From: Rhodovarius lipocyclicus
Lineage (GTDB): Bacteria > Pseudomonadota > Alphaproteobacteria > Acetobacterales > Acetobacteraceae
Length of the DNA: 62,310 nt
Direction of reading: 5' to 3'
NCBI RefSeq assembly: GCF_009900765.1
Contig: NZ_JAAABL010000021.1
Span: 1-62,310, forward strand
Below are positions 5,983-52,866 of the stretch, piece by piece (position 1 is the first letter of the stretch; every line of letters starts with the position of its first letter). Below the pieces are notes generated by a model that was given only the letters and a program-made list of their open reading frames with translations, had not been told where the DNA came from and did no database searches. Made by a program: the position numbers and the translations under genes.

Positions 5983-6192
5983 CCGAGGGGCTCTGCCCCT
6001 CGGACACCCCGCCAAAGGCCGAAAGGCCCTTGGAACCCATGAATTGGCGCCTTACCTTGGCAGGTGAGGCACAAAAATATTATTATAATATAATGGGTTA
6101 TACCTTTCCAAAAGGTGGCACCAAACTGCTGGGGTCCAGGGGCCTTTCGGCTCCTGGTGGGGGGAGCCCGAGGGGGGCAAAGCCCCTCTCGG
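5983..6192 (-). repeat. Composite hairpin repeat, copy 1 (inverted)
   Basis: Member of a six-copy intergenic family, in the opposite orientation to the others. On the plus strand it contains CCGAGGGGC-TCT-GCCCCTCGG (5983-6003), a GAAA-loop stem (6012-6033), an imperfect GGCGCC-type hairpin (from about 6046), an AT-rich core (about 6070-6112), the mirrored GAAA hairpin CCAGGGGCC-TTTC-GGCTCCTGG (6136-6157) and an 11-bp outer stem (6168-6192). The core is more diverged and more AT-rich than in other copies. It lies between two plus-strand genes, so it is downstream of the MFS gene and just upstream of xerD. Confidence 0.8.
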
Positions 6193-6202
6193 AGCCACAC
6201 CA

Positions 6203-7162
6203 ATGACCGCCCACTGGCTCGACATTTTCCTCGAAATGCTGGCTGCCGAGCGCAATGCCGCCCGCAACACCTTGCTGGCTTACCGGGCCGACCTCTCGGA
6301 TTTCCTGACCCAGCACGGGGCCGAGGCCACGGCCGATGATGTGCGTGATTACCTGCATCATCTGGCGGCCTCCGGCCTCGCGGCCCGCAGCCAGGCGCGC
6401 AAGTTGTCGGCCATCCGTCAGTTCTTCCGCTTCCTGGCGCGGGAGGGTTATCGCGCCGATGACCCGACGGAGCTGATCGACAGCCCCCGCCTGCCGCCCA
6501 GCCTGCCCAAGGCGCTGACCGAGGCGGAGGTGGAGGCGCTGATCCAGGGTGCCGAGCGCCTGCCGCCCACCCGCGCCCCCCTGGCCGTCGCGGCGCTGGA
6601 ACTGCTCTATGCCTCGGGGCTGCGCGCGTCGGAGCTGGTGACGCTGCCGGCGGGTGCCCTGCGGCAGAACGCGCCGTTGATCACGGTGCGCGGCAAGGGG
6701 GGGAAGGAGCGGCTGGTCCCCATCTCCCGCCGAGCGCGGGAGGCGGTGGCCGAGACGGCGGGCGAGGCCGAGCGGCGCGGGCGGGGCCATGTGCAGGCGG
6801 CGCGGTATCTGTTTCCGTCGCGCGGCAAGGCCGGGCATTTCACCCGCCAGGGGCTGGGGCTGCTGCTGAAGGAAGCGGCGCTGGCCGCGGGCGTGGACCC
6901 GGAGCGGGTTTCGCCGCATGTGCTGCGGCATTCCTTCGCCACCCATCTGCTGGGCCGCGGGGCGGATCTGCGCAGCCTGCAGACGCTGCTGGGCCATGCG
7001 GACATCGTGACCACGCAGATCTACACCAAGGTGCTGGACGAACATCTGCGGCGGCTGGTGGAAACGCATCACCCCCTGGCGACAGAAGCGCCCGCTCCGC
7101 GCATCATGCGGCCAGAACCAAGGCCGGCGCCCGCGCGCCGCAAGAAACGGGATAGTCCATGA
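6203..7162 (+). CDS. xerD: Tyrosine recombinase XerD
   Basis: Site-specific tyrosine recombinase, 319 aa, that with XerC resolves chromosome dimers at dif. An N-terminal SAM-like core-binding domain spans about residues 1-85. The catalytic residues are visible: Arg in ASGLRASELVTLP, Lys in GKGGKERLVP, HxxR in HVLRHSFATHLL, His/Trp-position His in LLGHADIVTT and the nucleophile Tyr in QIYTKV. XerD rather than XerC is assigned from overall similarity and because a second recombinase at 54629-55549 fits XerC. The stop overlaps the start of the CoA-lyase gene by 4 bp. The start is 11 bp after repeat copy 1. Confidence 0.9.
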   Translation: MTAHWLDIFLEMLAAERNAARNTLLAYRADLSDFLTQHGAEATADDVRDYLHHLAASGLAARSQARKLSAIRQFFRFLAREGYRADDPTELIDSPRLPPSLPKALTEAEVEALIQGAERLPPTRAPLAVAALELLYASGLRASELVTLPAGALRQNAPLITVRGKGGKERLVPISRRAREAVAETAGEAERRGRGHVQAARYLFPSRGKAGHFTRQGLGLLLKEAALAAGVDPERVSPHVLRHSFATHLLGRGADLRSLQTLLGHADIVTTQIYTKVLDEHLRRLVETHHPLATEAPAPRIMRPEPRPAPARRKKRDSP

Positions 7163-8100
7163 GTTTCCGCACCGTCACCGAAGCCACGCCGCGCCTGCAT
7201 CGCAGCGAGCTGGCCGTCCCTGCCTCCCGCCCCGCGATCTTCGAGAAGGCCGCCGCCTCCGCCGCCGACCTGGTCTTCCTGGACCTGGAGGACGCGGTGG
7301 CGCCGGACGAGAAGGAGGCCGCCCGCCGCAACGCCATCGACGCGATGACGAATGTGGATTGGGGCGACAAGATCATGGCCGTGCGGATCAACGGCCTGGA
7401 CACGCACTACATGTACCGCGACGTGATCGACCTGATCGAGCAGGCGGGCGAGCGGCTGGACCTGTTCATCATCCCCAAGGTGGGCGATGCGCGCGATGTC
7501 TATGCGCTGGACATGCTGACCACCCAGGTCGAGGCCGCGATGGGCCGCAAGAAGCGCATCGGCTTTTCCCTGATCATCGAGACGGCGCTGGGCCTGGCGA
7601 ATGTGGAACGCATCGCCGAGGCATCGCCGCGCATCGAGGCATTGCAGATGGGCGTGGCGGACCTCGCGGCGTCCTTGCGCATGCGCACCACCAATATCGG
7701 CGGGCCGGTGGAGGAATATGCCTCGGCGGCGGGCGTGCTGGATGCGTGGCAGTTCCCGATGTCGCGCGTGATCACGGCGGCGCGGGCGGCGGGGCGGCGG
7801 CCGATCGCCGGGCCCTTCGGCAATTTCAAGGACCCGGAGGGGCTGGAAGCCGCCGCCCGCCGCGCCCGTGCCCTGGGGGCGGAGGGCATGATGGCCATCC
7901 ACCCCAGCCAGATCGCCATCATCAACAGCGTGTTCACCCCCAGCGAGGCGGAGATCCATCAGGCCCGCCGCATCCTGCAGGCGATGGAGGAAGCCACCCG
8001 CACCGGTCGCGGTGCCGTGGCGCTGGATGGGCGGCTGCTGGACATCGCCAGCATCCGGCAGGCGGAGGCGCTGTTGGAAAAGGCCAAGATGCTTGGGTAG
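7159..8100 (+). CDS. HpcH/HpaI-family CoA-ester lyase
   Basis: Malyl-CoA/beta-methylmalyl-CoA lyase-like protein of the citrate lyase beta subunit family, 313 aa with a TIM-barrel fold. Landmarks are LAVPASRPAIFEKA, the metal and CoA region VFLDLEDAVAPDEK, AVRINGLDTHYMYRD, FIIPKVGDARDVY and IHPSQIAIIN near the C-terminus. Such enzymes cleave malyl-CoA or related esters to acetyl-CoA or propionyl-CoA plus glyoxylate with Mg2+. The exact ester cannot be told. It overlaps xerD by 4 bp (ATGA), and the next MFS gene begins within its last codons. Confidence 0.87.
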   Translation: MSFRTVTEATPRLHRSELAVPASRPAIFEKAAASAADLVFLDLEDAVAPDEKEAARRNAIDAMTNVDWGDKIMAVRINGLDTHYMYRDVIDLIEQAGERLDLFIIPKVGDARDVYALDMLTTQVEAAMGRKKRIGFSLIIETALGLANVERIAEASPRIEALQMGVADLAASLRMRTTNIGGPVEEYASAAGVLDAWQFPMSRVITAARAAGRRPIAGPFGNFKDPEGLEAAARRARALGAEGMMAIHPSQIAIINSVFTPSEAEIHQARRILQAMEEATRTGRGAVALDGRLLDIASIRQAEALLEKAKMLG

Positions 8101-9208
8101 GGGCCCGGGCGTCGCCTGGGCGGGCGCCGCCGCCACCTTCATCGGCATCGGGCTGGCGCGCTTCGCCTTCGTGCCGCTGTTCCCGGCCATGGTTTCGGCG
8201 GGTTGGGTGGATGGCGGGGGCGCGGGGCTGCTGGGGGCCACCACCCTGGCGGGCTATCTGCCCGGCGTGCTGATGGGCCAGCGCCTGGCGCGCGCCATCG
8301 GCACCGCCCGCGTGCTCGACCTCGCGATCGGGCTGGTGGTGCTGGCCTTCGCGGCCTGTGCCTGGAATGGCGGGCTGTGGTGGCTGCTGCCCTGGCGGGG
8401 TGCGGTGGGCGTGGCGGGCGGCTGGGTCATGGCGCTGGCCGCCCCCGCCACCCAGGCCGAACTGCCGCCCGAGCGCCGGGGCATGGTCGCCGGCATGGTG
8501 ATCGGCGGCGTGGCCAGCGGCATCTGGGTGGGCGCGCTGCTGATGCCCTGGCTGCTGCTGCGCGGGCCGGGCCCGGCCTGGGCCGCCCTGGCCGCCATCG
8601 CGGGCGCGCTGTGGCTGGTGGCCCGGCCGCGCTGGCCGCGCGCGGTGCTGCCGCCGCTGCGCGCCGGGGCCGGGTGGTCGCCGCTGCTGACGGCCTATCT
8701 GCTCTCGGGCGCCGGGATGGTGCCGCCCATGGTGTACCTGTCGGATCTGGTGGCGCGCGGGCATGGGCTGGGGCTATCGGCGGGCTCCCTGGCCTGGGCG
8801 CTGTTCGGGCTGGGAGGCCTTGGCGGCGCCTTGCTCGGCGGGCGGGTGGCGCAGGCCATGGGCGGCGCGCGGGCCGCCATGCTGTGGCTGCTGGCGCAGG
8901 TGCTGGGCATGGCCGGGCTGACCTTGCCGTGGCCCTGGCTCGTCTGGCCCGGGGCGGCGCTGGCCGGCTTCGCCGGCATCGGCGTCACCGCCGTGCTGCT
9001 GGTGCTGCTGCGTGAGCGCCATGGCGCCGATGCCCCGGCCCTGTGGGCGCGCGGCACCGCGGGCTATGCGCTGGGCCAGGCGGCGGGCGCCTTTCTGCTG
9101 GCGGCGATCTTCGCCATGACGCATGAAAGCCATGCGGCGGTGTTCGGGGCCGGGCTGCTGGTGTCCCTGGGCGCCGTCTGGGTGATGCGGGAGGCGATGA
9201 CGCCATGA
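8093..9208 (+). CDS. YbfB/YjiJ-type MFS transporter
   Basis: MFS permease of the YbfB/YjiJ family, about 371 aa and extremely rich in Gly, Ala, Leu and Trp, with about 12 membrane segments. The opening IGLARFAFVPLFPAMV followed by AGLLGATTLAGYLPGVLMG is the family signature. No ATG precedes the first membrane segment in this frame except far inside the CoA-lyase gene (8012), so a TTG start at 8093 overlapping that gene's stop is proposed. The cargo is unknown. The stop overlaps the alpha/beta hydrolase start in an ATGA. Confidence 0.82.
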   Translation: MGRGPGVAWAGAAATFIGIGLARFAFVPLFPAMVSAGWVDGGGAGLLGATTLAGYLPGVLMGQRLARAIGTARVLDLAIGLVVLAFAACAWNGGLWWLLPWRGAVGVAGGWVMALAAPATQAELPPERRGMVAGMVIGGVASGIWVGALLMPWLLLRGPGPAWAALAAIAGALWLVARPRWPRAVLPPLRAGAGWSPLLTAYLLSGAGMVPPMVYLSDLVARGHGLGLSAGSLAWALFGLGGLGGALLGGRVAQAMGGARAAMLWLLAQVLGMAGLTLPWPWLVWPGAALAGFAGIGVTAVLLVLLRERHGADAPALWARGTAGYALGQAAGAFLLAAIFAMTHESHAAVFGAGLLVSLGAVWVMREAMTP

Positions 9209-10089
9209 AGACCATCGACAGCGGCGTGCTGCGCCAAGCCTATGAGGAGCACGGCCCCGCCGGGGGCGAGCCCGTGATCCTGCTGCACGGCTTTCCCTAT
9301 GACCCGCGCTGCTATGACGCGGTGGCGCCGGCGCTGGCGGCGCGCGGCTATCGCGTGATCGTGCCCTATCTGCGCGGCTACGGGCCCACGCGCTTCCTGT
9401 CGGAATCCACGCCGCGCTCCGGCCAGCAGGCGGCATTGGCCTTCGACCTGCTGGCGCTGATGGACGCGCTGGGCATCGAGGCCGCGGCGCTGGCCGGCTA
9501 TGACTGGGGCGGCCGCGCCGCCTGCATCGCCGCCGCCCTGCACCCCGGCCGCGTGCGCTGCCTGGTCACCGGCAATGGCTACAATCTTCAGGACATCCCG
9601 GGCTCCGTCGCGCCCGCGGCGCCCGAGGCCGAGCACCGCCTGTGGTACCAATATTACCTCCACACCCCGCGCGGAGAGGCCGGGCTGCTGGCCGACCGCT
9701 TCGCGCTGTGCCGGCTGCTGTGGAAGCTGTGGTCGCCCAGCTGGCACTTCTCGGCCGAGGACTACGCCCGCAGCGCCCGCAGCTTCGAGAACCCGGATTT
9801 CGTGCCGGTGGTCGTCCAATCCTACCGCCACCGCTTCGGCTACGCGGCGGGCGACCCGGCGCTGGACGCCATGGAAGCCGCGCTGGAGGCCCAGCCCCGC
9901 ATCGCCGTGCCCAGCATCAACCTGTGGGGCGAGGATGACGGCGTGAACCCGCCCGGCGCGGGGGATGGCGCGGCGCACCGTTTCACCGGCCGGTATGAAC
10001 GCCGGCTGCTGCCCGGGGTGGGGCACAATATCCCGCAGGAAGCGCCGGAAGCGGTGGTGGAGGCGCTGGTGGACCTGATGGAAGGATGA
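9205..10089 (+). CDS. Alpha/beta hydrolase, epoxide-hydrolase-like
   Basis: Alpha/beta-fold hydrolase, 294 aa. HGFPYDP (residues 29-33) is the oxyanion-loop motif. The nucleophile elbow is AGYDWGG with an Asp (D100) rather than a Ser, which points to epoxide hydrolases or dehalogenases rather than esterases. A cap domain covers about residues 130-210, and the catalytic His is in GVGHNIPQEAPE near the C-terminus. It is translationally coupled to the upstream MFS gene. Its stop codon lies within the first hairpin of repeat copy 2. Confidence 0.85.
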   Translation: MKTIDSGVLRQAYEEHGPAGGEPVILLHGFPYDPRCYDAVAPALAARGYRVIVPYLRGYGPTRFLSESTPRSGQQAALAFDLLALMDALGIEAAALAGYDWGGRAACIAAALHPGRVRCLVTGNGYNLQDIPGSVAPAAPEAEHRLWYQYYLHTPRGEAGLLADRFALCRLLWKLWSPSWHFSAEDYARSARSFENPDFVPVVVQSYRHRFGYAAGDPALDAMEAALEAQPRIAVPSINLWGEDDGVNPPGAGDGAAHRFTGRYERRLLPGVGHNIPQEAPEAVVEALVDLMEG

Positions 10090-10240
10090 GGGGGCGCTGC
10101 CCCCTCAAACTCCCCCGGCAGGAGCCGAAAGGCCCCTGCACCCCATCAGTTTGGCGCCGGTCCTGCCAACGGTGTTCTCTTTGAATCTTATAATGAAAAT
10201 GGCGCCCCCCGGCGGGGAGCCGAGGGGTGGAACCCCTCGG
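10088..10240 (+). repeat. Composite hairpin repeat, copy 2 (shortened)
   Basis: Contains a GAGGGGGC-GCT-GCCCCCTC stem (10088-10106) that includes the last two bases of the hydrolase stop codon, the GAAA-loop hairpin (10118-10139), the AT-rich core (about 10174-10200) ending in ATGGCGCC, and an outer stem CCGAGGGGT-GGA-ACCCCTCGG (10220-10240). The second half seen in copies 3-6, with the GGCGCC and CAAAGGGTTG hairpins, is missing. It sits between convergent genes: the hydrolase and ftsY. Confidence 0.8.
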
Positions 10241-10252
10241 TCCTGTGGAAGT

Positions 10253-11308
10253 TCAATCCAACCCCATCAGCGACCGCGCGAAGTCCTTGGCCTCGAAGGG
10301 CCGCAGGTCCTCGGCTTTCTCCCCCACCCCCACCATATGCAGCGGGATGGCGAATTCCTGGGCCAGCGCCACCACCACGCCGCCTTTGGCCGAGCCATCC
10401 AGCTTGGTCACCGCGATGCCGGTCACGGCCACCAGTTCCTTGAACACCTTCGCCTGCTGCACGGCGTTCTGGCCGGTGGTGGCGTCCAGCACCAGCAGCA
10501 CGGAATGCGGCGCGGTCTCGTCGATGCGCCGGATCACGCGCACCACCTTGGCCAGTTCCTCCATCAGCGCGGATTTGTTGTGCAGCCGCCCGGCGGTGTC
10601 GATCAGCAGCACGTCCATGGCTTCGTCGCGCGCGCGGGTCAGCGCGTCGAAGGCCAGGCCCGCGGCGTCGGCGCCTTGCTTGGCGGGGGCGACGACGGGG
10701 CAGCCGGTGCGTTCGCCCCAGATCTGCAATTGCTCGACGGCGGCGGCGCGGAAGGTGTCGCCGGCGGCGAACATCACGGATTTGCCCTCGGCGCGCCATT
10801 GCTGGCCCAGCTTGGCGATGGTGGTGGTCTTGCCCACCCCGTTCACGCCGACCACCAGCACCACATGGGGTTTGCGCGCGGGGTCGAGCACCAGCGGCTG
10901 CGCCACCGGGGCCAGGATAGCGGTGATTTCCTCGGCCAGGGCGGCCTTCACCTCCTCGGCGGTCACTTCCTTGCCGAAGCGGTTGCGGCGAAAGTTCTGC
11001 ACGATGCGCTGAGAGGCCGAGACGCCGATATCGGCGACGATCAGGGTTTCTTCCAGCTCCTCCAGCGCCGCGTCATCCAGCTTCCGCTTGGTGAAGACGC
11101 TGGCGATGTTGTCGGTCAGCTGGCGCGTGGTGCGCGTCAGCCCGGCCTTGAGGCGCGAGAAGAAGCCGCGCGGGGCCCCCGGTTCGGGTGCCGGTTCGGG
11201 CTCCGGTTCCGGCATGGGCTCGGGCACCGGCTCGGGCGCGGGGGGCGGCACCTCCGGTGTGGGTTCCGCCTTGCCGGCGATGCGGCTCCAGAGGTCACGC
11301 AGCGCCAT
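10253..11308 (-). CDS. ftsY: Signal recognition particle receptor FtsY
   Basis: SRP receptor GTPase, 351 aa, docking ribosome-SRP complexes to the inner membrane during co-translational insertion. A Pro/Glu-rich acidic linker follows the start, then the four-helix N domain, then the G domain with GVNGVGKTT (P-loop, about residue 155), DTFRAAAVEQL, DTAGRLHN and TKLDGSAKGG. The start is [12 protein letters not shown]; a longer frame to 11374 lies inside mtaB. It overlaps the end of mtaB by 14 bp. The SRP RNA partner is encoded at 33509-33605 in this window. Confidence 0.95.
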   Translation of the reverse strand: MALRDLWSRIAGKAEPTPEVPPPAPEPVPEPMPEPEPEPAPEPGAPRGFFSRLKAGLTRTTRQLTDNIASVFTKRKLDDAALEELEETLIVADIGVSASQRIVQNFRRNRFGKEVTAEEVKAALAEEITAILAPVAQPLVLDPARKPHVVLVVGVNGVGKTTTIAKLGQQWRAEGKSVMFAAGDTFRAAAVEQLQIWGERTGCPVVAPAKQGADAAGLAFDALTRARDEAMDVLLIDTAGRLHNKSALMEELAKVVRVIRRIDETAPHSVLLVLDATTGQNAVQQAKVFKELVAVTGIAVTKLDGSAKGGVVVALAQEFAIPLHMVGVGEKAEDLRPFEAKDFARSLMGLD

Positions 11309-12509
11309 GGGGAATCTCCTCGGCCAGCAGGGTGGCGCCCTCTCGGGCCGTGACGCGCACCGGGCGCAGGGCACCGCGCGGGGCCGTGCCGCGCGTCAGG
11401 CGCAGGCGCAGGCCATGGGCGGTGGTGGCCTCGGTGGCGGTTTCGAAGATGGCCTGCTCCACGGCGCCCAGCCGGGTTTCGGCGAAGGCCTGGGCGCTGG
11501 CGGCGCCGGCCGCGCGCAGCTCGGCGGCGCGGGCGCGCGCCACGGCCACCGGCAGGGCGGGCATGCGCGCCGCGGCCGTGCCCGGCCGGGCGGAATAGGG
11601 GAACACATGCAGCGCCGAGGGCCGTAGCGCCGCCACCAGCGCCAGGTTGGCGGCGTGGGCCGCGTCGTCCTCGGTGGGGAAGCCCGCGATCAGGTCGGCG
11701 CTCAGCGCCATGTCGGGGCGGATGGAGCGCGCGCGATCGGCCAGTGCCTCGGCATCGCCCGCGCCATGGCGGCGGCGCATGCGCTTCAGCATCAGCCCGT
11801 CGGCATGCTGGGCCGACAGGTGCAGGAAGGGCGCCAGCCGCGCCTCATCCCGCCACAGCGCCCACAGCCCTTCCGGGATCGCCGCCGGGTCCAGCGAGGA
11901 CAGGCGCAGCCGCCCCAACCCCGGAATGGCCAGCACCGCGCGGGCCAGATGCGACAGGTCGCGCCCGTCCTCGGCCCAGCTGGCCAGGTCCACGCCGGTC
12001 AGCACGACTTCCGGCTGGCCGCGCGCCACGGCCTGGCGGGCGGCGCCCAGCACCGCCTCCAGGCCCATCCCGCGCGACGGCCCGCGCGCGATGCGGATGA
12101 CGCAGAAGGTGCATTCATGGTCGCAGCCCTGCTGCACCTCCAGAAAGGCGCGGGCGCGGCGGGTGGTGGCGGCGGGCGCCACCGGCATGTCGGGCGCGCC
12201 CCAGGCGGCGGGCGACAGCTTTTCGCTGTTCCCCAGCACCCGCGCCACGCCCGGCAGGGCGGCCCAGGCGGCGGGCGCCAGGGTGGCGGCGCAGCCGGTG
12301 ACGATGATGGGCCGGCCCGGAGCCTCCCGCGCCGCGCGGCGGATGGCCTGGCGCGCCTGGGCCTCGGCCTCGGCGGTGACGGCGCAGGTGTTCACGATCA
12401 GCGCGTCATGCAGCCCCCCGGCGGCGGCCAGCGCGGCCATGGTCTCGGCCTCCGCGCCATTCAGGCGGCAGCCGAGGGCCAGTGTCTCAGGCATCGAGGA
12501 GGGCGGCAT
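11295..12509 (-). CDS. mtaB: tRNA t6A37 methylthiotransferase MtaB
   Basis: Radical SAM methylthiotransferase of about 404 aa. It converts t6A to ms2t6A at position 37 of tRNAs reading ANN codons. The N-terminal MTTase domain begins at [15 protein letters not shown], with conserved Cys in [12 protein letters not shown] and TGCAATL. The radical SAM cluster motif is [11 protein letters not shown] near residues 132-142. A C-terminal TRAM-like segment follows. An alternative ATG at 12494 (MPETLALGC) is possible and would reduce the overlap with dapF. It lies between dapF and ftsY, an order often seen in alphaproteobacteria. Confidence 0.92.
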
Positions 12510-13314
12510 CCAACTCGCCGGTGAAGGAGACGGCGGTGGGGCCTTCCATCAGCACATGGCCGTCCTCGCGCCAGGTGATGGTCAGGGTGCCGCCCGGCAG
12601 TTCCACGGCGGCGCGGCGGCCCGTCAGCCCGCGCCGATGCGCGTTCACCAGCGTGGCGCAGGCGCCCGAGCCGCAGGCCAGCGTCAGCCCCGCGCCCCGT
12701 TCCCACACCCGCAGCACGATGTGCTCCGGCGAGACGACCTGCGCGAAGCCCACATTGGCCCGGTCGGGGAAGATCGCGGCATGTTCCAGAACCGGACCGA
12801 TCCGCTCCAGCGGCAGCGCCCAGGGGTCATCCACAAAGAATGTGGCGTGGGGATTGCCCATGGAGCACGCGGCCGGGTCGCTGACCGGGCCCTCGGACAG
12901 GTCCAGGTGCAGGGTATCCATCTCCCGCGCCAGGGGCACTTCGCGCCAGCCCAGGCGGGCGGGGCCCATGTCGATCTCGATCAGCCCCGGGGCGCTGACG
13001 CGGGCGGGCAGCAGGCCGGAGATGGTCTGGATCACGCCGGTGTCGCGGCCGGTTTCCTCGAACAGGATGCGCGCCACGCAACGGGTGGCGTTGCCGCAGG
13101 CCCCGGCCTCGCTGCCATCGGGGTTCAGGATGCGCATGAACACATCGCCCTGTGGGGCCTTCTCCAGCCGGATGATCTGGTCCGCCCCCACCCCCCGGTT
13201 GCGGTCCGCGAGCCAGCGCGCGCCGGCCTCGGTGATCGGCAGCGGGGTCTCGCGCGCGTCCAGGATGACGAAATCATTCCCGGCGCCATGCATCTTGCGG
13301 AAGGGTGTACGCAT
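12487..13314 (-). CDS. dapF: Diaminopimelate epimerase
   Basis: Converts LL-diaminopimelate to the meso form for lysine and peptidoglycan synthesis, 275 aa in the cytoplasm. It begins [15 protein letters not shown]. The two catalytic cysteines are in [11 protein letters not shown] and [11 protein letters not shown], the thiolate pair of this PLP-independent racemase. The start at [10 protein letters not shown] matches the family; an ATG three codons earlier (13323) is also possible. The much longer open frame to 14415 is a shadow of the opposite-strand lipoprotein and MFS region. It is the first gene of the dapF-mtaB-ftsY run. Confidence 0.96.
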
Positions 13315-13359
13315 ATGCCGCATATAGGATGATGCGGCGGGCCGCGCTATGTGGGGGGC

Positions 13360-14133: not shown

Positions 14134-14135
14134 AG

Positions 14136-15518: not shown

Positions 15519-15604
15519 GATGAGCCGATGGTAGGTCCATCAATCCAGCAGGGAAAATTCTAAAATCTCTTATGTTCGATGAGGCACAATCATACATTGG
15601 CGCC

Positions 15605-16477: not shown

Positions 16478-16485
16478 CCCCGCCT

Positions 16486-17427: not shown

Positions 17428-17432
17428 CGGCG

Positions 17433-18218: not shown

Positions 18219-18226
18219 GGCGGGCC

Positions 18227-30903: not shown

Positions 30904-30920
30904 GTGGGCAAGGGGCTGAG

Positions 30921-39328: not shown

Positions 39329-39502
39329 CCAGGGGGCGCCGCCCCCTGGACCCCAAGAGTTTGGTGCCGGTCCTGTAAGCGTATTTCTTATTGATTTTAA
39401 TCATGAAAATGGCGCCCCGCCTCCCAAGGTAAGGCGCCAATCAATGGGTTCAAAGGGTTGCTACAACCCTTTGCGGGGAGCCCGAGGGGCAGAGCCCCTC
39501 GG
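39329..39502 (+). repeat. Composite hairpin repeat, copy 4 (GAAA hairpin missing)
   Basis: CCAGGGGGC-GCC-GCCCCCTGG (39329-39349) is followed directly by the GTTTGGTGCC segment without the GAAA-loop hairpin. The AT-rich core (about 39380-39408), the GGCGCC-type hairpin, CAAAGGGTTG-CTA-CAACCCTTTG and the outer stem CCGAGGGGC-AGA-GCCCCTCGG (39482-39502) follow. It lies in the 346-bp gap between sdhB and the peptide-binding protein gene. The rest of that gap (39503-39665) shows no gene. Confidence 0.85.
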
Positions 39503-46897: not shown

Positions 46898-48328
46898 ATG
46901 CCCGCACCGCGCAACCTGACCGAACTCGAAGCCGATGTCCGCCGCGACCTGGAGCTGACGGCCCACCCCCGCGCCCCCTGGCTGCAACCGAAAACCGCCG
47001 GCGGCGCCCCGGTGCTGGACGCGCTGGTGATCGGCGCCGGGCAGTGCGGCCTGGCCGTGGCCCACGCGCTGAAGCGCGACCGCGTGGACAACATCCTGTG
47101 CATCGACCGTGCGGCGGAAGGCCGGGAGGGCCCCTGGGTCACCTATGCCCGCATGCGGTCCCTGCGCAGCCTGAAGGACCAGACCGGCCCGGACCTGAAG
47201 ACCCCCTCCCTGACCTATCAGGCCTGGCATGAGGCCCGCTATGGCGTGCCGAGCTGGGAGGCGATGACCTGGATCCCGAAGGAGAACTGGAACGACTATC
47301 TGCTGTGGTTCCGCCGCGTCACGGCCATCCCGGTGCGCAACGGCGTCGAGGCCGGGCTGATCACCCCCACCACCACCGATGACGGCCTGCCGGCCCTGCA
47401 TGTGCAGACCAGCGCCGGCCCCATGACCGCCCGCAAGATCGTGCTGGCCACCGGCCAGGAGGGCGTGGGCGGCTGGTGGATGCCGCCCCATATCGCCGCC
47501 CTGCCGCCCCGCTACCGAGCCCACACCAACCAGGAGATCGACTTCCGTGCCCTGCGCGGCAAGGTCGTCGCCGTGCTGGGCGCCGGGGCCTCCGCCTTCG
47601 ACAACGCGGCCGTCGCGCTGGAGAACGGCGCCGCCGAGGTGCACCTGTTCTGCCGCCGCGCGGAGCCCATGGTGGTGCAGCCCTATCGCTGGCTGACCTT
47701 CGCGGGCTTCCTGCGCCATATGGGCGAGATGCCCGATGAGTGGCGCTGGCGCTTCATGAGCTACATCCTGGGCCTGCGGGAAGGCTTCGCGCAGGAGCAC
47801 TACAACCGCGTGCTGCCGCACCCGAACTTCCTGATGCATATCGGCCGCAGCTGGGACAGCGTGCGGGTGGAGGATGATCGCGTCATCATCGGCACCCCGC
47901 GTGGGGACTTCACCGCCGACTTCCTGATCACTGGCACCGGCGTGCGGATGGACCCGGCCATGTGCCCGGAACTGGCCGCCTGCGCCCACAACATCGCCGC
48001 CTGGAACGACCGCTACACCCCGCCGGCCGAGGAAGCCAACGAACGGCTGGGCCAATTCCCCTACCTGGCGCAGGACAGCAGCTTCATCGAGAAAGCCCCG
48101 GGCGAAACCCCCTGGATCCGCGACATCCATCTGTTCGGCATCGGCACGACCATGAGCTTCGGGCCCGCCGGCAGCAGCATCAACGCCATGTCCATCGCAG
48201 CGCCCCGCGTGGCGGCGGGTGTGACACGCGGGTTGTTCGAGGCCGACCTGCCGCGGCTGTACGCGGATCTGCGGGCGTATGACACGGTGCAGGTGGAGTT
48301 GCAGGCGGAGAAGATCGCGGCGGAGTAG
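46898..48328 (+). CDS. Flavin-containing monooxygenase-like oxidoreductase
   Basis: 476-aa FAD/NAD(P)-binding protein. The first Rossmann motif is ALVIGAGQCGLAVAHAL (about residue 45). A second dinucleotide motif is VAVLGAGASAFDNAAVAL (about residue 225), and ATGQEGVGGWWMP lies between them. The arrangement fits FMO or Baeyer-Villiger-like monooxygenases, but no clear BVMO fingerprint is visible, so the substrate is open. It stands alone and is followed by repeat copy 5. Confidence 0.8.
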   Translation: MPAPRNLTELEADVRRDLELTAHPRAPWLQPKTAGGAPVLDALVIGAGQCGLAVAHALKRDRVDNILCIDRAAEGREGPWVTYARMRSLRSLKDQTGPDLKTPSLTYQAWHEARYGVPSWEAMTWIPKENWNDYLLWFRRVTAIPVRNGVEAGLITPTTTDDGLPALHVQTSAGPMTARKIVLATGQEGVGGWWMPPHIAALPPRYRAHTNQEIDFRALRGKVVAVLGAGASAFDNAAVALENGAAEVHLFCRRAEPMVVQPYRWLTFAGFLRHMGEMPDEWRWRFMSYILGLREGFAQEHYNRVLPHPNFLMHIGRSWDSVRVEDDRVIIGTPRGDFTADFLITGTGVRMDPAMCPELAACAHNIAAWNDRYTPPAEEANERLGQFPYLAQDSSFIEKAPGETPWIRDIHLFGIGTTMSFGPAGSSINAMSIAAPRVAAGVTRGLFEADLPRLYADLRAYDTVQVELQAEKIAAE

Positions 48329-48332
48329 AAGG

Positions 48333-48595
48333 CCGAGGGGCGCTGCCCCCAAAGGGCACAAAGACCGAGGGGCGCTGCCCCTCGGGCTCCCCGGCAGGAG
48401 CCGAAAGGCCCCTGCACCCCATCAGTTTGGCGCTGATTCTGCCAAGGTGTTTCCCATTGAATTTTATAATGAAAATGGCGCCCTACCTGCCAAGGTAAGG
48501 CGCCAATTCATGGGTTCAAAGGGTTGCTACAACCCTTTGCGGGGGTGTCGGGGGCAGCGCCCCTGACCGGGGGTCCAGGGGGCGGAGCCCCTTGG
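48333..48595 (+). repeat. Composite hairpin repeat, copy 5
   Basis: Starts with a damaged GGGGC stem (from 48333), then CCGAGGGGC-GCT-GCCCCTCGG (48365-48385), the GAAA-loop hairpin (48394-48415), an AT-rich core (about 48448-48476), the GGCGCC hairpin with one mismatch, CAAAGGGTTG-CTA-CAACCCTTTG, a GGGGGC-AGC-GCCCCT stem and CCAGGGGGC-GGA-GCCCCTTGG (48575-48595) followed by CTTTT. It lies between convergent genes, where it could end transcription from both sides. Confidence 0.85.
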
Positions 48596-48599
48596 CTTT

Positions 48600-49382
48600 T
48601 CACCCCCCAAGTATCGCCAGCGCTTCCGCCATCAGGCCCGGGTCCCCCAGCGCCAGCACATCCCCGGCCGAATCCAGCGTCAGTGCGCGGCCGTGCCAAT
48701 CCGTCAGGCTGCCGCCCGCGCCCTGGATCACGGGTGCCAGGGCGGCCCAATCCCAGGGTTTCAGGGTCGATTCCGCCACCACGTCGATCGCGCCCAGCGC
48801 CAGCAGGCCGTAGCCATAGGCATCCCCGCCCCAGGTCGCGCGCTTGCAGGCGGCGCGCAGGGTTTCGAAGCGCGGCAGGTCGTGGGCGGTGAAGATGTCG
48901 GGGGCTGTGCAGCTCAGCTCCGCCTCGGCCAGGGTGGCGCAGGGGCGGCAGCCGGCGGTGCCGCCGAAGGGGCCGGTGAAGACCGTGGCCTGCCCGGCCA
49001 CGCCCAGCCAGCGCTCACGCGTGGCGGGCTGGTCGATGATGCCCAGCACGGGCTTGCCCCGGTGCAGCAGCGAAATCAGGGTGGTGAACAGCGGCCGGCC
49101 GGTGATGAAGGCGCGGGTGCCGTCGATGGGGTCCAGCAGCCACACCCATTCGGCGTCGGCGCGGTCGGGGCCGAATTCCTCGCCCCAGATGCCGTGGTCA
49201 GGGAAGCGCTGGCCGAGGAATTCGCGCAACGCCACCTCGGCGCCGCGATCGGCGGCGGTGACGGGCGATTCGTCGGCCTTGCCCTCCACCGCCAGCGGGC
49301 GGCGAAAATAGGGCAGGATGACGCGCCCGGCCAGATCGGCGGCCTCGGTGGCCGCCGCGACGATCCCGGGCGCGACGGTCAT
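48600..49382 (-). CDS. hisN: Inositol-monophosphatase-family phosphatase (HisN-like)
   Basis: 260 aa, Mg2+-dependent. Metal-binding motifs are GEEFGPDRADAEWVW with DPIDGTRAFITGRPLF (about residues 86-101) and WDWAALAPVIQGAGG near the C-terminus. This subgroup in actinobacteria and alphaproteobacteria includes histidinol-phosphate phosphatase, the eighth step of histidine synthesis; inositol phosphatase activity cannot be excluded. The stop of the upstream cytochrome c gene lies 2 bp before its start. Confidence 0.85.
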   Translation of the reverse strand: MTVAPGIVAAATEAADLAGRVILPYFRRPLAVEGKADESPVTAADRGAEVALREFLGQRFPDHGIWGEEFGPDRADAEWVWLLDPIDGTRAFITGRPLFTTLISLLHRGKPVLGIIDQPATRERWLGVAGQATVFTGPFGGTAGCRPCATLAEAELSCTAPDIFTAHDLPRFETLRAACKRATWGGDAYGYGLLALGAIDVVAESTLKPWDWAALAPVIQGAGGSLTDWHGRALTLDSAGDVLALGDPGLMAEALAILGG

Positions 49383-49384
49383 GC

Positions 49385-49930
49385 TCAGGGCAGCGGGACC
49401 GGGTTGGCCGCCAGGCTGCGCAGATAGGCGATGACGTCCGCGCGCTGCTCGATGTTGCGGATGCCGGCGAAGGCCATGCGCGTGCCGGGGACGGTGGTGC
49501 CCGGATGCGCCAGGAAGTTGTTCAGCGCCTCATAATCCCACGGGTGGCCCGCCTTGGCGCGCATCGCGTTGGAGTAGCTGAAGCCTTCATGCGCCGCGTG
49601 GTCGCGGCCGACCACACCGTACAGGTTCGGGCCCACCGCGTTGCGGCCGCCTTCGGTGAAGGTGTGGCAGGAGCCGCACTGGCGGGTGGCGATGGTGCGG
49701 CCGTTGTCGGCGTTCGCCGCGGCCAGCAGCGGTACGATCGGCGGTTCGGCCGGCACCTCGGCCGGGGCGGCGGGGGCGCCACCGGCGGCGGGCGCGCCCT
49801 GAATGGTGATGGCCGCGTGTTCCAGCTTGTGCGGGTGCACCAGAAGTTCACCCAGGAAGCCCGCGCCCATGAAAACCACACCGGCCACCAGCGGCGCGGC
49901 GAAGATCTTGTTCAGCTCCAGATTCGCCAT
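49385..49930 (-). CDS. Membrane-anchored class I cytochrome c
   Basis: 181 aa. The N-terminus holds an uncleaved anchor (APLVAGVVFMGAGFLGELLV), then a Pro/Ala-rich linker, then a c-type heme domain with CGSCH and the distal Met in GTRMAFAGI. It resembles CycM/cytochrome c552, which links the bc1 complex to cytochrome oxidase in alphaproteobacteria. The start is the ATG of MANLELNKIF. Divergent from kdsB. Confidence 0.9.
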   Translation of the reverse strand: MANLELNKIFAAPLVAGVVFMGAGFLGELLVHPHKLEHAAITIQGAPAAGGAPAAPAEVPAEPPIVPLLAAANADNGRTIATRQCGSCHTFTEGGRNAVGPNLYGVVGRDHAAHEGFSYSNAMRAKAGHPWDYEALNNFLAHPGTTVPGTRMAFAGIRNIEQRADVIAYLRSLAANPVPLP

Positions 49931-50014
49931 CGGGACCCGTAACCTTCCTGCATGCATGCCACCGCGCGAAAACGCCCGCGCGATCCTTGTCTTATTGCTG
50001 CACCACAGCCCAGC

Positions 50015-50043
50015 TTGGCAAGGGGCGGAGGGCTTCCTAAGAC
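50015..50043 (+). promoter_or_regulatory. Predicted promoter of kdsB
   Basis: TTGGCA (50015-50020), a 17-bp spacer and TAAGAC (50038-50043), about 68 bp upstream of the kdsB start in the divergent gap with the cytochrome c gene. Confidence 0.45.
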
Positions 50044-50111
50044 GCGCCGCACCATATAGGCCTGCTCGGAAGCCTTCAATCTCCCCCGATGAACCGCAAA
50101 GGTGCTGTTTC

Positions 50112-50843
50112 GTGAACCCGATCATTGTCATACCGGCACGCATGGGCAGCAGCCGGCTGCCCGGCAAGCCTCTGGCCGACATCCATGGCCAGCCCATGAT
50201 CGTGCATGTTCTGCGCCGCGCGCTGGAGGCCGGGATCGGCCCCGTGGCCGTCGCGGCCGGTGAGCCCGAGATCGTCGCCGCCGTGCGGGCGGCCGGCGGC
50301 ACCGCCGTGCTGGTGGCTGAGGATCTGCCCTCCGGCACGGATCGCGTGAAGCGCGCGGTGGATGTGCTGGACCCCGAGGGCCGGCACGACGTGGTGGTGA
50401 ATTTGCAGGGCGACGCGCCGACGCTGGCGCCGGAGCTGCTCTCGGCCGTGCTGCGCCCGTTGGCGGACCCGGGGGTGGAGATCGGCAGCCTGGTCGCCCC
50501 CATCGCCGATGCGCGGGAAGCGGCGAAGGACAGCTACGTCAAATGCGCCTGCGCCTTCGCGCCGGGCCAGGATGTGGCGCCAGCCCCCTATTTCAGCCGC
50601 GCGGCCGTGCCGTGGGGCGAGGGGCCGCTGTGGCACCATATCGGTGTCTATGCCTATCGCCGGGCGGCGCTGGAACGCTTCGTCACCCTGCCGGAAAGCC
50701 CGCTGGAGAAGCGCGAGAAGCTGGAACAGCTCCGCGCCCTGGAAGCTGGCATGCGCATCGCCGTGGCCCGCGTGCCGCACGGCCCCTTCGGCGTGGACAC
50801 GCCCGAGGATCTGGAACACGCCCGAGAGCTGCTGAAAGCCTGA
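50112..50843 (+). CDS. kdsB: 3-deoxy-manno-octulosonate cytidylyltransferase
   Basis: CMP-Kdo synthetase, 243 aa, activating Kdo for lipopolysaccharide core synthesis. It begins IIVIPARMGSSRLPGKPLAD (nucleotide-binding), with DLPSGTDRVKRA and NLQGDAPTLAPELL further on. A GTG start immediately before NPIIVIPAR is the only codon that gives the normal N-terminus. 3 bp separate it from pheA. Confidence 0.94.
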   Translation: MNPIIVIPARMGSSRLPGKPLADIHGQPMIVHVLRRALEAGIGPVAVAAGEPEIVAAVRAAGGTAVLVAEDLPSGTDRVKRAVDVLDPEGRHDVVVNLQGDAPTLAPELLSAVLRPLADPGVEIGSLVAPIADAREAAKDSYVKCACAFAPGQDVAPAPYFSRAAVPWGEGPLWHHIGVYAYRRAALERFVTLPESPLEKREKLEQLRALEAGMRIAVARVPHGPFGVDTPEDLEHARELLKA

Positions 50844-50846
50844 ACC

Positions 50847-51692
50847 ATGCCCATCATCGCCTTCCAGGGCGTCCCCGGCGCCTATTCCGACCTGGCCTGC
50901 CGCCACGCCTATCCCGGCTGGACCACCATGCCCTGCGCCAGCTTCGAGGCCGCCATCGAGGCGGTGCGCGACGGCGCGGCCGAGCTGGCCATGCTGCCCT
51001 GTGAGAACAACCTGGCCGGCCGCGTGCCCGACATCCACCGCATGCTGCCCGACAGCGGCCTGTTCGTTGTGGGCGAGCATTTCGAGCGCGTGGAACACTG
51101 CCTGCTGGCCAACAAGGGTGCCACCATCGCCGGGCTGAAGCGCGCGCATTCGCACCCCATGGCGCTGGGCCAGGTGCTGAAGGTGCTGAAGGAGCTGAAG
51201 CTGGAGGCCGTGATCGAGGCCGACACCGCCGGCGCCGCCAAGCTGCTGGCCGAGGCCGGCGGGCTGGAGGACGCGGCGATCGCCAGCTCCCTTGCCGCCG
51301 AAACCTATGGGTTGGAGATCCTGCGCCGCAATGTCGAGGACGCGGCGGACAACACCACCCGCTTCTACGTCATGTCCCGCGACGCGCGGCTGCCGGCCGT
51401 GGGCACGCCGCGCTGCGTGACCACCTTCGTCTTCCAGGTGCGCAGCATTCCGGCCGCGCTGTACAAGGCGCTGGGCGGCTTCGCCACCAATGGCGTGAAC
51501 CTGACCAAGCTCGAATCCTACATGCTGGGCGGGCGCTTCACCGCCGTGCAGTTCCTGTGCGACGCCGACGGCCACCCGGAGGAACCCGCCATGGCCCGCG
51601 CGCTGGAGGAGCTGCGCTTCTTCAGCCATGAGCTGCGCGTGCTGGGCACCTACACCGCCCATCCCTACCGCATCGAGAACGAGAGCAACTGA
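50847..51692 (+). CDS. pheA: Prephenate dehydratase
   Basis: 281 aa, monofunctional. The catalytic domain (about residues 1-180) has AFQGVPGAYSDLACRHAYP and LPCENNLAGRVPD, and NTTRFYVMSRD with the TRF motif. A C-terminal ACT domain (FVFQVRSIPAALYKAL, then KLESYMLGGRFTAVQF with the ESR-like region) gives feedback control by phenylalanine. No chorismate mutase domain. The kdsB-pheA pair next to a cytochrome c gene is a conserved alphaproteobacterial arrangement. Confidence 0.94.
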   Translation: MPIIAFQGVPGAYSDLACRHAYPGWTTMPCASFEAAIEAVRDGAAELAMLPCENNLAGRVPDIHRMLPDSGLFVVGEHFERVEHCLLANKGATIAGLKRAHSHPMALGQVLKVLKELKLEAVIEADTAGAAKLLAEAGGLEDAAIASSLAAETYGLEILRRNVEDAADNTTRFYVMSRDARLPAVGTPRCVTTFVFQVRSIPAALYKALGGFATNGVNLTKLESYMLGGRFTAVQFLCDADGHPEEPAMARALEELRFFSHELRVLGTYTAHPYRIENESN

Positions 51693-51695
51693 GCC

Positions 51696-52628
51696 ATGGC
51701 GATCCTCCTCTCCACCAAACTGAACGCCATGGAAGCCTGGCGCGACGCGCTGCTGGCGCTGGACCCCACGCTCGACATCCGCATGTTCCCCGATGCCGGC
51801 AAGCCGGAGGACATCGAGGCCGCCGTGTGCTGGACCGCGCATGACATGGCCGAGCTGCGCCGCTATCCGAACCTGAAGCTCATCGTCTCCATGGGCGCTG
51901 GCGTGGACCACCTGCTGCGCGCCCCGGGCCCGCCGCCGGGCGTGCCGGTGGCCCGCCTGAAGGACGAGATGCTGACCACCGCCATGGGCGAGTGGGTGCT
52001 GCTGAACGTGCTGCGCTTCCATCGGCAGGACCTGGAATACCGCGCCCAGCAGGAAGCCCGCATCTGGAACGAGCTGCCCGCCCCCTTCACCGCCGAGCGC
52101 CGCGTGGGCTTCCTGGGCCTGGGGCAGCTGGGGGCGCACGCCGCCCAGCTATGCCGCCACCTGGGCTTCCCGGTGCTGGGCTGGACGCGCAACCCGCGCC
52201 AGGTCGAGGGCATCCGGTGCTTCCACGGCGACGCCGGGCTGCGCGACATGCTGCGCCAGACCGACATTCTGTGCTGCCTGCTGCCGCTGACGCCGGACAC
52301 GCGCGGGGTGATCAACAAGGACACGCTCGGCCTGCTGCCGCGCGGGGCCTATGTGATCAACTCCGCCCGCGGCGGGCATGTGGTGGATGCCGACCTGCTG
52401 GCGGCCCTCGACAGCGGCCATGTGGCCGCCGCCGCGCTGGATGTGTTCGAGCCGGAACCCCTGCCGGCCGACCACCCCTATTGGGGCCACCCGAAGGTGC
52501 TGGTCTGGCCGCATGCCAGCAGCATCACCATCCCGCGCAGCGCCGCACCGCAGGTGGTGGAAAACCTGAAGCGCCTGAAGGATGGGCGGGAACTGATCAA
52601 CCTGGTGGATTTCAGCGCGGGGTATTGA
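51696..52628 (+). CDS. Glyoxylate/hydroxypyruvate reductase-like D-2-hydroxyacid dehydrogenase
   Basis: 310 aa, GhrA-like. NAD(P)-binding motif GFLGLGQLGAHAAQLC (about residue 140). Catalytic residues are Arg in INSARGGHVVDADLL, Glu in DVFEPEPLPADHPYW and His in VLVWPHASSITI. It reduces glyoxylate or hydroxypyruvate in the cytoplasm. 3 bp after pheA, so probably in the same operon, which ends at repeat copy 6. Confidence 0.9.
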   Translation: MAILLSTKLNAMEAWRDALLALDPTLDIRMFPDAGKPEDIEAAVCWTAHDMAELRRYPNLKLIVSMGAGVDHLLRAPGPPPGVPVARLKDEMLTTAMGEWVLLNVLRFHRQDLEYRAQQEARIWNELPAPFTAERRVGFLGLGQLGAHAAQLCRHLGFPVLGWTRNPRQVEGIRCFHGDAGLRDMLRQTDILCCLLPLTPDTRGVINKDTLGLLPRGAYVINSARGGHVVDADLLAALDSGHVAAAALDVFEPEPLPADHPYWGHPKVLVWPHASSITIPRSAAPQVVENLKRLKDGRELINLVDFSAGY

Positions 52629-52637
52629 GGGCGTAGC

Positions 52638-52866
52638 CCAGGGGGCGCCGCCCCCTGGACCCCCGGCAGGAGCCGAAAGGCCCCTGCACCCCATCAGTTT
52701 GGCGCCATACAGTGCCAAGGTGTTTCTTATTGATTTTAATAATGAAAATGGCGCCTTACCTGCCAAGGTAAGGCGCCAAACGCATGGGTTCAAAGGGTTG
52801 CTACAACCCTTTGCGGGGTCGCCAGGGGCAGCGCCCCTGGCTGGGGGCCCGGGGGCAACGCCCCCG
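52638..52866 (+). repeat. Composite hairpin repeat, copy 6 (most complete)
   Basis: CCAGGGGGC-GCC-GCCCCCTGG (52638-52658); GAAA-loop hairpin with GCAGG/CCTGC ends (52666-52687); AT-rich core (about 52722-52749); a perfect 12-bp stem GGCGCCTTACCT / AGGTAAGGCGCC with GCCA loop (52750-52777); CAAAGGGTTG-CTA-CAACCCTTTG (52791-52813); CCAGGGGC-AGC-GCCCCTGG (52822-52840); CGGGGGC-AAC-GCCCCCG (52850-52866). It lies between convergent genes. Confidence 0.88.

Follow-up and report, generated by a model that had tools for sequence, protein, structure and literature searches.

The RIB and RIP elements of Escherichia coli consist of a REP pair with an IHF-binding core, in which an AT-rich middle separates two oppositely oriented palindromic units. 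Intergenic repeats are also found in Alphaproteobacteria, such as RIME in Rhizobium, and inverted uptake-sequence pairs in Neisseria and Haemophilus exemplify a dispersed repeat that has taken on a second role as an intergenic terminator. An association of REP-like palindromes with the 3' ends of genes has long been noted, and whether they are parasites or working terminators is debated.

In the available parts of three reports, REPs are described as inverted hairpin pairs that are extragenic, lie 3' of genes, permit G.T pairing and serve as targets of insertion sequences (PMC3116915, PMC3733652, PMC1525189). The Correia or NEMIS elements of Neisseria are non-autonomous palindromes of 105–155 bp with 24-bp terminal inverted repeats, a TA duplication and an optional inner sequence containing an IHF site, and a hairpin role at the RNA level has been proposed for them; CIR of Caulobacter and Brucella is an alphaproteobacterial intergenic repeat with a methylation motif and no inverted ends (PMC2229807, available parts). 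Among the titles and abstract beginnings of the openly licensed literature, no published description of the family presented below was found.

The window analysed here, a stretch of 62,310 nt from the genome of Rhodovarius lipocyclicus (contig NZ_JAAABL010000021.1), contains six copies of a composite hairpin repeat of about 150–260 bp. The reading that we prefer, and consider probable on balance though with real reservations, is a REPIN/BIME-like non-autonomous mobile palindrome acting as a probable two-way 3'-end element behind genes. The family makes the debate over parasites and terminators testable, as it combines a constant frame with exchangeable cores, has filled and empty sites among congeners, and occurs in a genus in which no RAYT was found, which implies another way of spreading.

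Architecture and base pairing of the family

The six repeats listed in an earlier note on this DNA were all found when the letters were read and aligned. The fixed module order claimed for them holds for copies 2–6 on the + strand, and copy 1 (5983–6192, − strand) has to be reverse-complemented before it shows the same order; the element being a long imperfect palindrome, this copy reads inverted relative to the other five. It lies between genes 4810–5970 and 6203–7162, both on the + strand, and its outward half-elements at 5983–6040 (−) and 6129–6190 (+) enclose an AT-rich core. The stems listed in the note needed correction: they belong to a single two-hairpin half that occurs twice, in inverted orientation. 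Whole-module losses are real in two copies, according to the alignment of all six. The shortened copy 2 (10087–10240, +) has a complete left half (10087–10146, −) and a reduced right half (10199–10240, 27.9 bits), has lost the core stem and the inner hairpin on its right side, and occupies a convergent gap beside gene 10253–11308 (−), which we take to be ftsY-like. Copy 4 (39329–39502, +), in a tandem gap, has a right half at 39444–39502 (+) and lacks the left inner (GAAA) hairpin, leaving the outer hairpin 39329–39354 as its entire left half. The remaining three copies lie in convergent gaps and bear additional outer hairpins: copy 3 (30920–31178, +; halves 30984–31033 (−) and 31121–31178 (+)) has an additional stretch at 30920–30976, copy 5 (48333–48595, +; halves 48365–48422 (−) and 48510–48567 (+)) has such sequence at both ends, from 48333 and at 48568–48595, and copy 6 (52638–52866, +; halves 52638–52694 (−) and 52784–52841 (+)) has one at 52850–52866.

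In the unit, two halves of two hairpins each face in opposite directions and enclose an exchangeable core, and the ends of the unit are inverted hairpin arrays. From the centre outward, each half reads GGGTT, inner hairpin, CGGGG and an outer hairpin with a 3-nt loop. The core is usually AT-rich and about 100 nt long in the window's genome; other genomes have in its place a long palindrome, in many cases GA-rich, or hardly any sequence. R1, a covariance model built on the core together with the inner hairpins, recovered all six copies in a search of the window (E = 2.9e-23 to 2.2e-48), the best match beyond them being at 40298–40331 (E = 0.13), and the resemblance among the copies is far beyond chance. 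The search for further genomic copies, proposed in the earlier note, returned at least 149 R1 matches at no fewer than 132 distinct places in the whole 4.59-Mb genome; this count is a lower bound from scoring 150 of 3269 first-look candidates, and includes truncated copies and copies cut by insertion sequences. The module order is also kept elsewhere, so that neither of the outcomes named in the note as refuting the family occurred. The 94 stretches of the same genome drawn on here were selected for bearing R1 matches. Over 596,672 bases, a half-element model (R2) gave 264 matches, of which 229 fell into 115 outward pairs and 35 were unpaired, with no inward pair within 260 bases; the gap between the paired halves was 85–89 nt in 95 of the 115 pairs. 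Since the copies are related by descent, counts made across them are not independent observations. With at most 10 candidates scored per genome, R1 matched 78 of 299 Acetobacteraceae genomes, including the window's own, and the family occurs in Acetobacteraceae plus a few other Alphaproteobacteria. One carrier is Neoroseomonas terrae LMG 31159, in which ftsY is followed by a pair of half-elements whose core is not of the AT-rich type. A plasmid collection searched with copy 6 gave no match.

Base pairing in the half-elements is conserved. An alignment of 63 half-elements (49 rows from 27 other genomes and 14 from the window's own) had 99.5% of its cells paired and two-sided changes at 18 of 20 pairs, although its rows were chosen by a hairpin finder, which favours paired rows (64 of 74 halves passed and one more was dropped). 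The covariation score was 0.497 versus 0.167 in shuffled alignments, and none of 500 shuffles reached it; the number of further pair types was less extreme (39 versus 35.0 shuffled; 23 of 500). At one site shared with a congener (C59:11747), six of 21 core stem pairs differ at both partners, and no pair differs at just one. Wobble pairs show a strand bias: in the outward reading there are 276 G.U versus 38 A.C pairs, in 94 and 31 distinct hairpins, and the G.U excess is small in other genomes (13 versus 4; nine loci for, four against, 15 ties). Template-switch repair could keep the stems perfect without selection on an RNA.

Such strong folding and covariation would also suit a trans-acting structured RNA or riboswitch family, a reading that we regard as extremely unlikely given its at least 132 dispersed places, its occurrence in both orientations relative to tandem genes and the exchange of cores between lineages. 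Nor did the element match Rfam at the gathering score, SRP RNA being the sole match in the whole window, and a permissive scan of 48300–52900 gave two sub-threshold microRNA matches. The structured RNA suggested in the earlier note is retained as a base-paired structure under constraint, and its trans-acting form found no support, there being no Rfam match.

Filled and empty sites and the means of spread

Of the options raised previously, a non-autonomous mobile element has the strongest support. Seven orthologous gene pairs were comparable with the congener G005, in which the element is absent from five and present in two. One of the five empty sites, C14:31319, could be polarised: the insertion of about 220 bp includes both hairpin sets, and G005 and a second congener, G002, are both empty. 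Because the outgroup G002 also has no element, we read this as a gain, provided that G005 is the closer relative, as the protein identities to the window's genome indicate (93% versus 83% for G002). Loss in G005 instead of gain is possible at the other four sites. One of these is the site of copy 3, which is unpolarised because its gene order was found in none of the seven other congeners (one with an incomplete locus). In a second polarity test, at C14:17591, the gene was found in the window's genome and G005 alone among nine genomes. The empty G005 site of copy 3 holds a GGGGGCTTCGCC stretch, which could be a remnant of the element. No clear target-site duplication was seen by eye at the five empty sites, whose flanks have diverged. 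Movement is not very recent, because the best full-length matches elsewhere in the genome are at 93% identity for copy 6 (E = 1.9e-93) and at 84% over 180 bases for copy 1.

The two sites filled in both the window's genome and G005, C4:140896 and C59:11747, the latter with the two-sided stem changes, would fit immobile bidirectional terminators or 3'-UTR structures, inherited vertically and alike by gene conversion or convergent evolution, and the location of the copies fits terminators as well. We nevertheless consider this explanation improbable, as five of the seven comparable sites are empty in G005, and the one polarised gain of a unit with both hairpin sets has already weakened it.

A mobile palindrome with these properties might be a conventional REP/REPIN family that depends on a RAYT (IS200/IS605-like Y1 transposase) for its movement, since it shares with REPs the inverted hairpin pair, the extragenic position 3' of genes, the G.T pairing and the use as an insertion-sequence target, as far as the available parts of the reports describe them (PMC3116915, PMC3733652, PMC1525189). 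We assign this origin a very low probability. The Y1_Tnp domain (PF01797) was found in none of nine genomes of the genus, including the window's own (completeness 69–99%), whereas five of 14 control genomes matched; among other element-bearing genomes there were three matches in 22, all in one genus and weak (24–25 bits). GTAG or CGTC was present on neither strand at the inner flank or linker of any of the 63 half-elements, in a scan that stopped short of the far foot of the outer hairpin; each motif occurs eight times elsewhere in the 63 rows. CGTC repeats are also described as missing in Acetobacteraceae in the available part of one report (PMC3733652). Under the preferred reading, the element would be moved in trans by an enzyme other than the usual transposase. 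The element seems, in addition, to serve as a landing pad for an insertion sequence: one insertion-sequence end has 10 matches in the genome, and every one of them abuts an AT-rich core (flanks judged by eye).

Location behind genes and the AT-rich core

The copies settle just behind gene ends, mostly between convergent genes. With genes called by a custom codon-usage script, the 132 places comprised 73 in convergent, 35 in tandem and three in divergent neighbourhoods, and 21 bounded on one side by the end of a contig; none had its midpoint inside a called gene, and the model edge overlapped a gene call at six. Convergent gaps thus account for 73 and divergent gaps for three of the 111 places flanked by genes on both sides. 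In convergent gaps the model edge lies at a median of 52 nt from the stop codon, and in tandem gaps 34 of 35 copies lie closer to the upstream stop. Among window gaps of at least 100 bp, a copy is present in four of four convergent gaps versus two of 16 others (Fisher P 0.003). Insertion just downstream of stop codons, as the preferred reading proposes, would explain why the copies lie mostly between convergent genes.

The location also bears on a passive MITE- or REPIN-like parasite without a host role, whose insertions elsewhere are purged and whose moving enzyme reads the hairpins as single-stranded DNA. We judge this unlikely, though several observations favour it: five of the seven comparable orthologous sites are empty, no midpoint lies within a gene, and the outward strand bias of the wobble pairs also fits a rule of single-strand recognition. 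Moreover, the copy 3 site already has an ordinary hairpin-plus-T terminator, AAAGGGCCCGGAAGGGCCCTTTTTTG (30879–30904, +), behind gene 30598–30873 and outside the element, and a corresponding one is present in G005, whose site is empty. Purging alone should, however, also spare copies near gene starts where these are tolerated, yet tandem copies nearly always lie towards the upstream stop and divergent gaps hold only three of the 111 copies. T-rich tails after the core stems are also commoner than in shuffles.

Strict terminator patterns occur in 32 (+) and 35 (−) of 108 AT cores, versus 8.6% and 5.0% of shuffles, and strict criteria in both directions are reached by 12 of 108 versus 0.6% of shuffles. 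When folded as RNA, stem 1 is the more stable in the rightward reading in 95 of 108 AT cores; stem 2 favours the leftward strand in just 67, and when read leftward has a mean dG of −16.3 and at least four T in the next eight positions in 107. The AT-rich core resembles, by its sequence, two back-to-back terminators with one common U-rich stretch. In copy 6, stem 1 (52698–52719; 52698–52729 with its T-rich tail, + strand) is terminator-like in the rightward direction, and stem 2 (13 pairs, 52778–52749; 52739–52778 with its T-rich tail, − strand) in the leftward direction. RNAalifold favours an alternative core fold in which the left GGCGC pairs with the central GGCGCC. A pattern scan of window positions 1–20000 gave five terminator-like sites where 5.7 would be expected, and copies 1 and 2 contained none of them; no U-tract adjoining the GA-rich core was seen by eye. 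A U-tract behind the outermost hairpins is ruled out as a general explanation: TTT occurs in only 33 of 228 outermost tails, and the other 195, which lack it, accord with a passive parasite.

In 56 of 108 AT cores, the leftward strand carries a sigma-70-like pattern, versus 4.0% of shuffles, with matches in copies 1 and 6, so the core may serve another role. It might be a carried promoter or protein-binding site from which leftward transcripts run through the hairpins as antisense or small RNAs. This seems hardly probable to us, because the rightward strand has the pattern in none of 108 cores (5.2% of shuffles), other core types lack it by eye, and it overlaps stem 2 (at 52766–52739 in copy 6), a stem common to the copies by descent. 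The core, moreover, points with the tandem genes (19 cases) nearly as often as against them (16), and in convergent gaps it lies on the + strand 40 times and on the − strand 33 times, so that it aims at no gene.

In the preferred reading, the inserted element would be transcribed as the 3' end of the flanking mRNAs, and its hairpins would probably be two-way 3'-end elements that stop or trim read-through into the opposing gene, or protect the 3' end. Where the core is AT-rich, a stem would stand on each side of one common U-rich stretch, and the core could act as a two-way terminator because transcription from each direction would meet a stem and then U-rich RNA. The element may thus help to stop transcription behind genes. 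We infer termination at this strength because strict two-way patterns are confined to 12 of 108 cores and 56 of 108 bear the promoter-like leftward motif. The bidirectional transcription end proposed in the earlier note is accordingly plausible from the location and from core stems followed by U-rich stretches; the absence of scan sites in copies 1 and 2, the scarcity of TTT in the outermost tails and the promoter-like motif in half of the cores count against it.

More tentatively, and as a reading that we would not call likely in full, the family may be a transposing two-way terminator: a selfish palindrome tolerated, and perhaps kept, for carrying terminators for both convergent transcripts. 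It would then represent an old four-hairpin chassis of the Acetobacteraceae, with cores swapped by lineage (AT-rich two-stem, GA-rich long palindrome or almost none) and moved by a non-RAYT enzyme class.

Comparison with known repeat systems

The inverted units around an AT-rich middle are shared with RIB and RIP; unlike in these, no IHF-like site stood above chance here, the IHF consensus being present within one mismatch in 7 of 108 cores, against about 6% of shuffles. Uptake-sequence pairs differ in being short uptake motifs, whereas the present element is a mobile multi-hairpin unit. RIME and CIR are, like the present family, alphaproteobacterial intergenic repeats. With Correia/NEMIS, as described in the available parts of one report, the family shares the non-autonomous palindrome with an optional inner sequence (PMC2229807), and it differs in that no duplication was seen by eye and the IHF consensus is not enriched. 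The closest likeness is to REPIN/BIME, which the available parts of the reports describe as having inverted hairpin arms and a less conserved middle, as extragenic, high in copy number and likely non-autonomous, as lying mostly between convergent or behind unidirectional genes, and as insertion-sequence targets (PMC3116915, PMC3733652, PMC1525189). The present family departs from that plan in lacking a GTAG/CGTC tag at the inner flank or linker and any RAYT found in the genus, and in having two hairpins per arm instead of one, copies of about 150–260 bp in the window and exchangeable cores, one of which is the two-stem AT-rich type.

Architecture and copy number

The six hairpin repeats of the window (copies 1-6, at 5983-6192, 10088-10240, 30921-31178, 39329-39502, 48333-48595 and 52638-52866) had been described in the earlier note as sharing one order of modules and differing by the loss of whole modules. 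Inspection and alignment of the sequences bore out the coordinates, the module order and the losses; the order is read on the + strand in copies 2-6 only, and copy 1 is inverted relative to them. As a whole the element forms an imperfect palindrome, and its real unit is two halves forming an inverted pair. Outward from the centre, a half-element runs from (A)TGGGTTC through an inner hairpin, CGGGG and a short linker to an outer hairpin whose loop is 3 nt long. The AT-rich core between the halves measures 101-103 nt, counted from CCCC on its left to GGGTTC on its right (38 aligned sequences). A covariance model of one half-element (R2) gave 12 matches in the window at E <1e-4, all within the six copies and outward-facing.

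A second covariance model (R1), built from 37 copies and covering the core plus inner hairpins, yielded 149 matches at 132 distinct places in the 4,585,642-base genome, a lower bound in that 150 of 3269 candidates were scored. These places comprise 108 with the AT core (pattern match), 12 with a GA-rich palindromic core and 12 with other or truncated cores. A further scan with R2, over 95 stretches of the same genome (596,672 bases including the window), detected 264 half-elements, 229 in 115 outward-facing pairs and 35 unpaired, with no inward-facing pair within 260 bases; two pairs lay away from any R1 place. One pair, L143:11597-11829, has inner hairpins quite unlike the others and a long AT-rich core of another type.

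Genomic placement, mobility and insertion sequences

With genes called by a codon-usage script, 73 of the 132 places are convergent, 35 tandem and 3 divergent, and at 21 a contig end leaves one side without a called gene. Gene junctions in the window are only 9 convergent versus 41 tandem and 9 divergent, and 73/111 is therefore a strong excess of convergent gaps. Element midpoints fall inside called genes at none of the 132 places, and the edge of the model runs into a gene call at 6. All four window convergent gaps of >=100 bp hold a copy, the remaining five being <40 bp. Among the 35 tandem copies, the upstream stop codon is nearer than the downstream start in 34 (medians 47 and 117 nt). 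Cores point with the tandem genes about as often as against them (19 and 16). The window also contains, in a divergent gap, a lone 11-pair hairpin outside the element family (53964-53989), and a bacterial small SRP RNA (33509-33602, minus strand, 56.1 bits).

Genes of the window's genome were matched to 40 stretches (782,252 bases) of the congener G005, somewhat less than half of them picked for holding matches; the comparison starts from own stretches chosen for elements and covers sites filled in the window's genome. Seven of the 78 gene adjacencies common to both genomes hold an element in the window's genome. At two of these both genomes carry an element (C4:140896, 262 bp in each, and C59:11747); the other five are empty in G005, with gaps of 329 versus 63 bp (C4:65622), 274 versus 77 bp (C14:8129), 256 versus 70 bp (C14:17591), 310 versus 60 bp (C21:30873, window copy 3) and, by gene calls, 283 versus 115 bp (C14:31276, where protein similarity begins ~16 bp behind the stop). 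The upstream protein at C14:31276 shows 93% identity in G005 and 83% in the more distant congener G002; because G002 is also without the element, yet retains the gene downstream (64% identity), the element there was gained on the line leading to the window's genome, given that G005 is the closer relative. At the copy 3 site an ordinary hairpin-plus-T terminator adjoins the site in both genomes, so the element there is additional. A further polarity test gave no polarity, the gene being found in only 2/9 genus genomes. Inspection of the empty sites by eye showed no target duplication.

The element itself appears to be a landing place for insertion sequences. A 73-base insertion-sequence end (GGGCTTGTTGAGATT) has 10 genome matches, all at contig ends (C17, C37, C38, C39, C57, C59, C62, C64, C72 and C86). 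By eye, all ten flanks are AT-rich cores, beside TA-rich sequence: six of R1 type, three of the other AT-rich type seen at L143:11597-11829 (C38, C39, C86) and one degenerate (C62). A second pair of related ends (TGTTCAGAC...) occurs 10 times in the fetched stretches, a sample biased toward element neighbourhoods; nine lie directly behind a G-run resembling the first arm of an outer hairpin, and the tenth, which is the left end of the window, immediately follows a complete outer-type hairpin. There (1-138) the insertion-sequence end (TGTTCAGACCGGACACATCC, minus strand) adjoins the hairpin at 122-138, CAGGGGCAAAGCCCCTG, and the left end may be a seventh copy of the element, cut off where the contig stops. 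Another end (GGGTCTCGACTAG) interrupts AT cores in three cases (L110, L143:17309 and L168). Insertion sequences that target REPs, as described in one report (PMC1525189), offer a parallel to the ends at AT-rich cores.

Core features and base pairing

The earlier note had also offered a bidirectional transcription end. On the present analysis of the AT core, stem 1 would then act rightward and stem 2 leftward. In a pattern scan, copy 6 was terminator-like on both strands (minus, a 13-pair stem then TTTTCATTAT; plus, an 8-pair stem then GTGTTTCTTA), and scanning window 1-20000 in the same way gave no such sites in copies 1 and 2. Strict terminator criteria selected 32 of the 108 AT-core copies on plus, 35 on minus and 12 on both, versus 8.6%, 5.0% and 0.6% of dinucleotide shuffles. 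As leftward RNA, stem 2 averages -16.3 kcal/mol, and in 107/108 at least 4 of the 8 bases that follow it are T; stem 1 is weak (-5.8 kcal/mol), its rightward RNA is more stable than the leftward in 95/108, and a tail of this kind follows it in 71/108. Against a two-way terminator, RNAalifold folds the core differently, only 67/108 copies have a stem 2 that favours the leftward strand, and TTT occurs in 33/228 tails behind the outermost hairpins. A promoter-like pattern overlapping stem 2 appears on the leftward strand of 56/108 AT cores versus 4.0% of shuffles (e.g. window 6082-6111 and 52739-52766, both minus strand), and on the rightward strand of 0/108 (shuffles 5.2%). Because the copies share ancestry, these tallies over AT cores do not represent independent events. 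Copy 1 has another such pattern on the window + strand (6057-6086), and the IHF consensus is not enriched in the AT core. We prefer to read the element as a REPIN/BIME-like non-autonomous mobile palindrome.

Pairing was assessed on 63 half-elements (62 distinct; 49 rows from 27 other genomes and 14 own). Standard pairs fill 99.5% of cells, a value favoured by choosing the rows with a hairpin finder, and two-sided changes occur at 18/20 pairs. The covariation score was 0.497 versus 0.167 shuffled (reached by 0/500 shuffles), and further pair types numbered 39 versus 35.0 (reached by 23/500), which supports constraint on the paired structure. In the long core stem at the common C59 site, 6/21 pairs differ between genomes, all two-sided and none one-sided, and two more positions are unpaired in one genome. 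Imperfect pairs read outward from the core are 276 G.U and 38 A.C over the 132 copies, or 94 and 31 over 193 distinct hairpins. Since G.U exceeds A.C outward and the numbers swap inward, by complementarity, the sequence of each half seems tuned for outward reading as single-stranded RNA or DNA. At 28 loci of other genomes the G.U excess is small (13 to 4), with G.U favoured at 9, A.C at 4 and a tie at 15.

Spread and comparison with known palindromic repeats

The nearest ftsY relatives of the window's genome are Neoroseomonas, Plastoroseomonas and Roseomonas, and judging from these its family is Acetobacteraceae. R1 matches occur in 78/299 Acetobacteraceae genomes (own included) and 36/102 genera. 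At 28 loci, one from each of 28 other genomes, the frame is mostly kept, as judged with the hairpin finder (inner hairpins on either side at 28/28, outer at 26/28); many of the cores are long palindromes, commonly GA-rich, and some are almost absent. R2 matched 7/385 genomes sampled from the class: own, one more of Acetobacteraceae and five from four other families, two of these of one genus (12 and 14 matches) and three with one match each. In the ftsY-neighbourhood search, half-elements were found in Neoroseomonas terrae, N. oryzicola, Belnapia moabensis and, weakly, a Belnapia species, and were absent from 34/38 named loci. Lichenicola cladoniae also belongs to Acetobacteraceae. For that species, RepRanger is reported to give 1,369 REPs (PMC12306157).

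In the portions of the literature covered by our search, we found no published description of this hairpin repeat family. The RAYT domain Y1_Tnp had no match in 9/9 genus genomes (controls positive in 5/14) and weak matches in 3/22 other element-bearing genomes, all of one genus. Because two defining features of REPINs/BIMEs fail here, the GTAG/CGTC tag (looked for at the inner flank and linker of 63 half-elements) and the RAYT (looked for in the genus genomes), we file the element as a new variant of that kind rather than as a member. As described in the cited papers (PMC3116915, PMC3733652, PMC1525189), REPINs/BIMEs share with the element inverted hairpin arms, extragenic placement behind genes, G.T pairs in stems and a role as insertion-sequence targets, and the two may work alike.
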